DNA from: Candidatus Cloacimonadota bacterium
Lineage (GTDB): Bacteria; Cloacimonadota; Cloacimonadia; Cloacimonadales; TCS61
Direction: 5' to 3'
Assembly (NCBI GenBank): GCA_021735645.1
Contig: JAIPGP010000143.1
Span: forward strand, 1 to 36,376
DNA: 36,376 nucleotides
The notes below the pieces were generated by a model. That model was not told the origin of the DNA. It worked only from the letters and a program-made list of their open reading frames with translations, and made no database searches. Shown here piece after piece: positions 13,651 to 14,329 of the stretch. The translations under genes and the position numbers were made by a program. Within the stretch, counting starts at the first letter, position 1; every line of letters begins with the position of its first letter.

Positions 13651-13826
13651 TTGACCGCTGCTGCAAGTTCTTACACAAATTCTGACACTCTTATCATAAT
13701 ATTCTCATATTCGCCACAACTGCTTTCTGAATGTAAAAAAAATTTTTTTATGAATTCCATAACCTCCCACTAAAAAACAAACTAAAATATTTCAGATTAG
13801 AAATAGGTTTGGTATTCAAATTGCAT

Positions 13827-13832
13827 TATAAT
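13827..13832 (+). promoter_or_regulatory. -10 box of the small RNA candidate
   Basis: Perfect TATAAT. A G at 13839, seven bases after its end, is a natural start site and begins the first hairpin. The -35 region is poor (TAGGTT at 13804-13809 at 17 bp), so an activator or strong -10 dependence would be expected. Confidence 0.55.
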
Positions 13833-13838
13833 ATTATT

Positions 13839-14003
13839 GGAAACGGAAACAGATTTACCGGTTCCCTTGCATAGAGCAGATAAGATAGATTGCTCATGTT
13901 GATTTTAGAATTTTTTATAGTATGTTGATCGGGCTTAGAATTTTGTCTGAAAAACAACAGGAGAGTTTGACGGGCCCCTCCCTGTCTTTCTCTCCTTATT
14001 TTT
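13839..14003 (+). ncRNA. Candidate small RNA (about 165 nt), no known family recognised
   Basis: This stretch has no credible reading frame but looks like an independent transcript. It starts after a perfect TATAAT, opens with a hairpin (13839-13865; GGAAACGG against CCGGTTCC, one mismatch), has a second hairpin (13874-13895; GAGCA/TGCTC) and ends in a strong terminator. Between them lies a direct repeat: ATGTTGAT at 13896 and 13922, each followed by TTAGAATTTT (13905 and 13935). That could be two copies of one pairing or protein-binding site. The ends do not pair, which argues against 6S RNA. It is over 180 bp from nadB, so a nadB 3' UTR is less likely but possible. Confidence 0.55.
13960..14003 (+). 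terminator. Rho-independent terminator of the small RNA candidate
   Basis: GGAGAG at 13960-13965 pairs with CTCTCC at 13990-13995, with further pairs inside (GAC/GTC, GG/CC) around a C-rich loop. TTATTTTTT follows immediately. It would also catch any read-through from nadB before the SRP RNA promoter. Confidence 0.88.
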
Positions 14004-14029
14004 TATCCTTTCTCAGCAATCAGCAAAAC

Positions 14030-14058
14030 TTGACATAATATCCTACCTGACAAAAAAT
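14030..14058 (+). promoter_or_regulatory. SRP RNA promoter
   Basis: Perfect -35 TTGACA at 14030-14035, 17-bp spacer, and a weak -10 AAAAAT at 14053-14058. The predicted start, near 14065, coincides with the first base of the SRP RNA closing helix. Confidence 0.6.
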
Positions 14059-14064
14059 ACTTTT

Positions 14065-14329
14065 GTGTGCTAGGCGGGGAGGTAGCGGTGTCCTGTAACC
14101 CACAATCCGCTATAGTGGGGCTGAATTCCTGCATGAGAATATTGATTTCTCAAGTTGGATTGATAAGTAGTGTTGAGGATCAAGCCCAACGCAATTGTGA
14201 ACTGTGAACTGTGTCAGGTCCGGAAGGAAGCAGCACTAAAGAGTCCTCGCGATGTGCCGTTGGCTCACTTGATCTGAGCTGGCTGTTAATTCCTACTTTA
14301 GAATAGATACCGATTGCAGGTGCACACCT
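14065..14329 (+). ncRNA. ffs: Signal recognition particle RNA, long (Alu-containing) form
   Basis: About 265 nt. The invariant helix 8 with GGAA tetraloop is at 14211-14236 (GTCAGGTCCGGAAGGAAGCA), where SRP protein Ffh binds. The 5' Alu-like domain follows the long bacterial form: TAGCGG (14083-14088) pairs with CCGCTA (14107-14112). GATCAAG (14178-14184) pairs with CTTGATC (14268-14274) to make the long helix 5. The ends close as helix 1: GTGTGC (14065-14070) with GCACAC (14322-14327). CCTGCA (14128-14133) can also pair with TGCAGG (14315-14320). A perfect hairpin at 14134-14152 (TGAGAA/TTCTCA) lies on the 5' strand. The RNA directs translating ribosomes to the membrane. End points are inferred from pairing. 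Confidence 0.95.

Follow-up and report, generated by a model that had tools for sequence, protein, structure and literature searches.

Does the gap between nadB and ffs on contig C19 of a Candidatus Cloacimonadota MAG (genome G000) hold a gene for an undescribed small RNA (sRNA), and which of its elements would then matter? In the window, by which we mean the whole analyzed stretch of 36,376 nucleotides, the gene order is nadB, the candidate locus, ffs and hisS (Table 1). A first-pass annotation had claimed here an independent transcript of no known family, with a TATAAT box, a start G, two 5' hairpins, a duplicated module and a strong terminator. The G is indeed found 7 to 8 bases downstream of TATAAT, and the terminator is present as the GC-rich stem-loop with a following U-run that is expected of an intrinsically terminated independent transcript. 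Scanning the window strictly against Rfam 15 returned only the SRP RNA and a tRNA, with nothing at the sRNA locus, where even a permissive scan yielded only matches far under the gathering scores; the absence of a known family was thus borne out.

Table 1. Features of the nadB–ffs region, in positions of the window
Feature	Position	Strand	Basis or remark
nadB	ends 13650		upstream neighbour; FAD-binding domain
Sigma-54 (RpoN) type promoter TTGGTATTCAAATTGCAT, GG (-24) N10 GC (-12)	13809..13826	+	kept in 3/3 homologues
TATAAT, -10 box of the first-pass annotation	13827..13832	+	present; G033 and G062 without it
Predicted transcription start, 12 nt past the -12 element	13836..13840	+	from the -24/-12 geometry
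5' hairpin 1	13839..13865	+	MFE fold; window copy only
5' hairpin 2	13869..13899	+	MFE fold; window copy only
Direct repeat ATGTTGAT..TTAGAATTTT, two copies	13896..13944	+	above chance in shuffles; not conserved
Middle hairpin	13920..13958	+	MFE fold and alignment; compensatory changes
Intrinsic terminator hairpin and U-run	13959..14003	+	stem 13959-13996; fold, model match, covariation
Terminator apex GGGCCCCTCCC	13972..13982	+	identical in 3/3 homologues; proposed anti-Shine-Dalgarno seed
Apex loop CCCCTC	13975..13980	+	predicted unpaired, probability 0.97-1.0
Sigma-70-like promoter TTGACA-17-AAAAAT of ffs	14030..14058	+	promoter scan; separate from the sRNA promoter
ffs, large bacterial SRP RNA	14065..14327	+	downstream neighbour; RF01854, 184.7 bits

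The 165-nt fold had an energy of -45.2 kcal/mol (z -2.48), which 3 of 200 shuffled sequences equaled. The repeat units lie at 13896 and 13922 (ATGTTGAT) and at 13905 and 13935 (TTAGAATTTT), and a colinear 8+10 repeat of this kind arose in 20 of 3,000 dinucleotide shuffles; the list of an ungapped repeat finder did not contain the direct repeat of 13896-13944. Such elements, together with the fold and the repeat, are by themselves no proof of a gene, and we therefore examined relatives.

Homologues and conserved structure

Homologues of the sRNA were found in two further MAGs of the family, G033 (locus L042) and G062 (locus L053), the former through the shared apex GGGCCCCTCCC when 29 loci upstream of ffs were compared across the family, the latter by scanning all fetched loci for the same apex. 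The G033 copy stands in the same order as in the window, after a nadB tail (DLIIAALRNSKSVGCHFIK; 18 residues aligned at 50% identity, E 0.001) and before ffs and hisS; the G062 copy lies ∼2.7 kb upstream of ffs, preceded by a clostripain-family gene and followed by a 691-aa ORF. The two copies were 84% identical over 166 nt by BLAST, and the window matched G033 in two colinear pieces, one from the terminator and one from the promoter. When the window locus was queried against 59 relatives by BLAST, most matches were short, AT-rich and attributable to chance, and the colinear pair in G033 stood out only through the apex in its ffs upstream region. The predicted RNA measures ∼165 nt in the window (13836-14003) and ∼115 nt in G033 and G062. 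Since nadB and ffs are only ∼55 to 100 nt apart in G029, G034 and G004, the RNA is absent from their gap; a TTGACA upstream of ffs was seen in most relatives among those listed.

The apex GGGCCCCTCCC followed by a T-run occurred in 2 of 59 relatives, the window's own genome included, and GGCCCCTCC, searched in 10 genomes of G033's genus, had sites in 3; only a single site in G033 and one in G062 are part of the RNA. The site in G061 and one of the two in G033 lie in coding-looking DNA and were rejected, as were the BLAST matches of the G062 copy in G028, G024, G009 and G026 (one of two there), which we attribute to other promoters or chance.

Covariance model R1, built from all three copies, matched at least 3 of 40 family genomes and, under stricter filters, at least 3 of 106 genomes of the order; these matches are its own training copies and inform on distribution alone. 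The distribution within the family is narrow, and gaps in the MAGs and the candidate limits of the search may hide some copies. Model R2, built from G033 and G062 only, provided an independent test. In the window (36 kb) it scored 38.5 bits (E 5.6e-5) against the terminator half at 13881-14019; its promoter half gave a separate, weak match at 13803 (E 3.3) because the window copy carries a 64-column insert. Over 63 sources (373 kb) the window match retained an E value of 5.7e-4, and the next best of 7 matches reached 21.7 bits.

Alignment A1, which rests on three sequences, two of them (G033 and G062) from close relatives, keeps TTGG-A-T-AAATTGC, then the middle hairpin and then the terminator, at a mean column identity of 66%. 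In its consensus structure 93.3% of 90 cells are paired, and pairing fell to 48-56% in a partner-sliding control. Double-sided changes occur in 5 of 30 pairs (mean of the shuffles 1.8, with 2 of 500 reaching this count), namely in three pairs of helix 1, the middle hairpin, where 95.2% of cells are paired, and in two of helix 2, the terminator. The orthology of the three copies, their promoter geometry, the covariation of the hairpins and the invariance and predicted accessibility of the apex are computed properties of these sequences. The homologues, the match of the held-out model and the RNA covariation support the independent small RNA of the first-pass annotation, and we consider it very probable that an undescribed sRNA gene lies at 13836-14003. 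Short frames of 20 to 43 aa exist on both strands, as they would if the locus were a small protein gene instead of an RNA, yet no shared frame stands out (nothing in the ORF list of G033 corresponds to the 34-aa frame of G062) and the stem changes are compensatory, which makes a protein gene extremely improbable.

The comparison also changed the picture of which elements matter. Of the comparison with relatives that was proposed earlier as a check, the covariance model R2 recovered the terminator half, and alignment A1 has the promoter and the middle hairpin kept as well, but neither the TATAAT nor the 5' hairpins. Both 5' hairpins are present in the MFE fold, but they fall within ∼64 extra alignment columns that follow the promoter in the window copy and are missing from both homologues, and this 5' third has no homologue. 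A third hairpin at 13920-13958 had been overlooked; the relatives conserve it, as they do the terminator and the sigma-54-type promoter. Though real and above chance, the direct repeat is kept in neither G033 nor G062, and because the duplicated module is not conserved, its suggested role as a target-pairing site found no support. The element that is both conserved and predicted to be unpaired is instead CCCCUC, the loop at the apex of the terminator hairpin.

We also considered that the transcript might be an attenuator leader that either stops at the terminator or reads through into a downstream gene, with its hairpins acting as the sensor. Just past the terminator, G033 and G062 share a conserved hydrophobic ORF of 34-39 aa, as such a leader would require; in the window, however, this ORF is absent and ffs, which has a promoter of its own, comes next, and no competing anti-terminator fold appeared among the MFE structures examined. 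Attenuation is hence improbable, and we continue with a free-standing sRNA.

A probable sigma-54-type promoter

TATAAT is present at the position claimed for the -10 box, but relatives have AATAAT-like sequences at that site and the hexamer is not the conserved promoter. What is kept in all three homologues is TTGG-N10-GC, a sigma-54-type element (window, TTGGTATTCAAATTGCA; G033, TTGGCATTCAAATTGCA; G062, TTGGCACTGAAATTGCA). The published sigma-54 consensus is mrNrYTGGCACG-4bp-TTGCWNNw with GG at -24 and GC at -12 (PMC2725144), from which the window site deviates in the CACG part (TATT). The strict motif has a single match in the window; 300 shuffled versions of the entire window that kept its dinucleotides gave 4 in total. 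In 39 genomes of the family we counted 84 matches (summed over the table), against 1 for a reversed-pattern control, and a Shine-Dalgarno (SD) sequence with an ORF (80 aa or longer) that begins 35 to 100 nt downstream accompanied 15 of 30 fetched motif sites versus 28 of 600 random positions. The RpoN DNA-binding domain (PF04552) was present in 8/8 genomes tested; as for rpoN in G000, the window contig may be mis-binned and G000 may then not be its true genome. Given the enrichment of the motif, the positioning of the ORFs and the presence of rpoN, these bacteria appear to use the motif, one instance of which is correctly placed before the RNA. Both marks of an RpoN-dependent sRNA, the promoter spacing (3/3 homologues) and the rpoN gene (8/8 genomes), are thus found, and the sRNA promoter is likely of the sigma-54 type.

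Alternatively, the sRNA might be transcribed from a sigma-70 promoter with TATAAT and a start at ∼13839, its likeness to a sigma-54 site arising by chance. The TATAAT is perfect and the start G plausible, and the promoter scan proposed TTGGTA and TATTAT at a spacing of 17 (score 9/12). The scan did so, however, in preference to TATAAT, for which it showed no good -35 element at 16 to 18 nt; G033 and G062 lack TATAAT but keep GG-N10-GC and AAATTGCAT; and the strict sigma-54 motif is expected only ∼0.013 times in a window of this size. We therefore regard a sigma-70 promoter as unlikely and the TATAAT, which overlaps the predicted start region of the sigma-54-type promoter, as probably coincidental.

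No upstream activator site shared among the three copies was found. Upstream of the sRNA promoter of G033 we observed a perfect 10-nt inverted repeat, TCACGACAGT/ACTGTCGTGA (L042:932-941 and 1007-1016, 65 nt apart), which was not found in the other two copies and is possibly an activator site.

The terminator apex and its candidate targets

The apex GGGCCCCTCCC is invariant in all three copies although pairs of the lower stem differ, and across these three sequences its C-rich motif is predicted to lie unpaired in a loop on divergent stems. The CCCCUC loop is complementary to GAGGGG, which is a strong form of the SD sequence. In the mechanism that we infer, covering transcription, RpoN dependence, SD pairing and target repression, RNA polymerase with sigma-54 would initiate at the GG-N10-GC promoter; a promoter of this type would need an enhancer-binding activator, and expression would therefore depend on a signal. 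The intrinsic terminator would end the transcript to give a free-standing ∼165-nt RNA, and its hairpin would double as a pairing arm, the CCCCUC loop binding GAGGGG of selected mRNAs and so blocking ribosome binding. Pairing of the loop with SD sequences is our best guess, though we judge it to be evenly poised; towards the explanation as a whole, an RpoN-dependent sRNA that acts in trans by pairing its CCCCUC loop with G-rich SDs, we lean slightly.

Counts of GGAGGGG-N2-12-ATG against a reversed control were 20 versus 3 in G033, 9 versus 6 in G062 and 24 versus 21 in G000, the latter two being near background. We examined 40 of the 53 sites (30 and a further 10 from G033, leaving out 13 of G000); many had no real ORF, and a single orthologous pair emerged, a gene with a GGAGGGG SD in both G033 and G062 that looks sensor-kinase-like by eye and whose proteins are 88.6% identical. 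An SD common to such close relatives is weak evidence for pairing, and the target statistics are compatible with the SD-pairing mechanism without establishing it. The apex also matched GGGGAGG at the 5' end of the SRP RNA, which we judged a coincidence.

It is also conceivable, if rather less probable, that the sRNA is real and pairs through other parts, its C-rich apex being a protein-binding site or the mere tip of a stable terminator. The weak SD statistics of G062 and G000 fit this, as does the single GC-rich palindrome made up of loop and upper stem. Against it, an 11-nt identity in an alignment whose columns average 66% identity exceeds what terminator stability needs, and C-rich loops that pair with SDs are established in other systems. 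SD pairing through the apex is thus the reading that we compare with known regulators.

The closest precedent is αr14/NfeR1 of the Rhizobiales, which carries an ultraconserved anti-SD motif, CCUCCUCCC, in unpaired hairpin regions on divergent stems and silences ntrB (PMC10746234, PMC3927594). Common to both are the C-rich anti-SD loop, the diverging stems and pairing at translation starts, which for the present RNA is a proposal. NfeR1 has three hairpins, each with CCUCCUCCC, whereas the Cloacimonadota RNA has one CCCCUC apex, in its terminator hairpin; the motif thus occurs in a single hairpin only, as CCCCUCCC, which sets the RNA outside the αr14 family proper. NfeR1 is moreover alphaproteobacterial and activated by LsrB, and the excerpts consulted mention no RpoN promoter for it. 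RoxS and FsrA of Bacillus bind mRNA targets through C-rich regions, for example at the ribosome-binding site (PMC8216469, in excerpt). They resemble the present RNA in being short and having C-rich target-binding regions (here a proposed function), but belong to a different phylum, are not stated in the excerpt to depend on sigma-54, and were compared in sequence via the Rfam scan only.

As regards the promoter, Qrr and GlmY/GlmZ are sRNAs transcribed from RpoN promoters under an enhancer-binding activator. The same holds for CrcZ and CrcY (PMC6292655, in excerpt), which act by lifting the repression by Hfq-Crc and not by pairing through an SD-like loop, and to which we saw no homology of the Cloacimonadota RNA. 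The sRNA itself is thus undescribed, but its type of regulator is already known. Among the papers searched, none joined "Cloacimonadota" with "small RNA" or "Cloacimonetes" with "sigma-54". If our reading is true, a phylum that is mostly uncultured gains a concrete candidate sRNA, for which both the controller (RpoN) and the seed are predicted, as well as a promoter motif, TTGGYAY-N5-TTGCAT, usable to map the phylum's sigma-54 regulon. More speculatively, and we think this doubtful, an RpoN-driven set of sRNAs with anti-SD terminator loops, possibly including an unrelated candidate in G006 (L123), may serve Ca. Cloacimonadota as a signal-controlled translational switch with fast stem turnover, in which only the promoter and seed loop are kept.

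Origin of the contig and further loci

By hisS, the closest relatives that carry a name are MAGs of Candidatus Cloacimonadota. G000 contains two copies each of ffs, hisS and mnmA, the second ones on contigs C67 (ffs and hisS) and C48 (mnmA). The hisS of C67 is 79.7% identical to that of G001, and the window hisS is 59.4% and 56.7% identical to the C67 and G001 copies and 70.5-74.9% to those of five loci of G033's genus. The window mnmA shows 60-62% identity to four genomes of that genus and 64% to G014, 40% to the best match in G033 and 50-53% to the copies of C48 and G001. By these identities the window contig is probably mis-binned and would come from a lineage nearer those other genera. This would explain why two genomes assigned to the same genus lack the RNA, and it means that the target counts of G000 may concern the wrong organism.

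Several further loci were noted. The small hydrophobic ORF (MKKTNLILG..FFLQT), which the window lacks, lies directly past the sRNA terminator at L053:2048-2167 and L042:622-726 (minus strand); its further matches mostly look like N-termini of longer frames. An sRNA-like unit at L123:1501-1640 (G006:C109, near 8320), flanked by exbB/exbD/tonB-like genes on one side and an aroC-like gene on the other (named by eye), has a strict sigma-54 motif, one hairpin containing GGGGCCTCC, one long perfect hairpin and a T-run. At L135, L136 and L138-L141, in several genomes of G033's genus, a small secreted-looking protein of 85-86 aa is encoded ∼50 nt past a strict sigma-54 motif every time. Strict motifs also stand upstream of ORFs of 23-25 aa at L127, L133 and L142, and in two of these three loci a longer ORF of 406-424 aa comes next.
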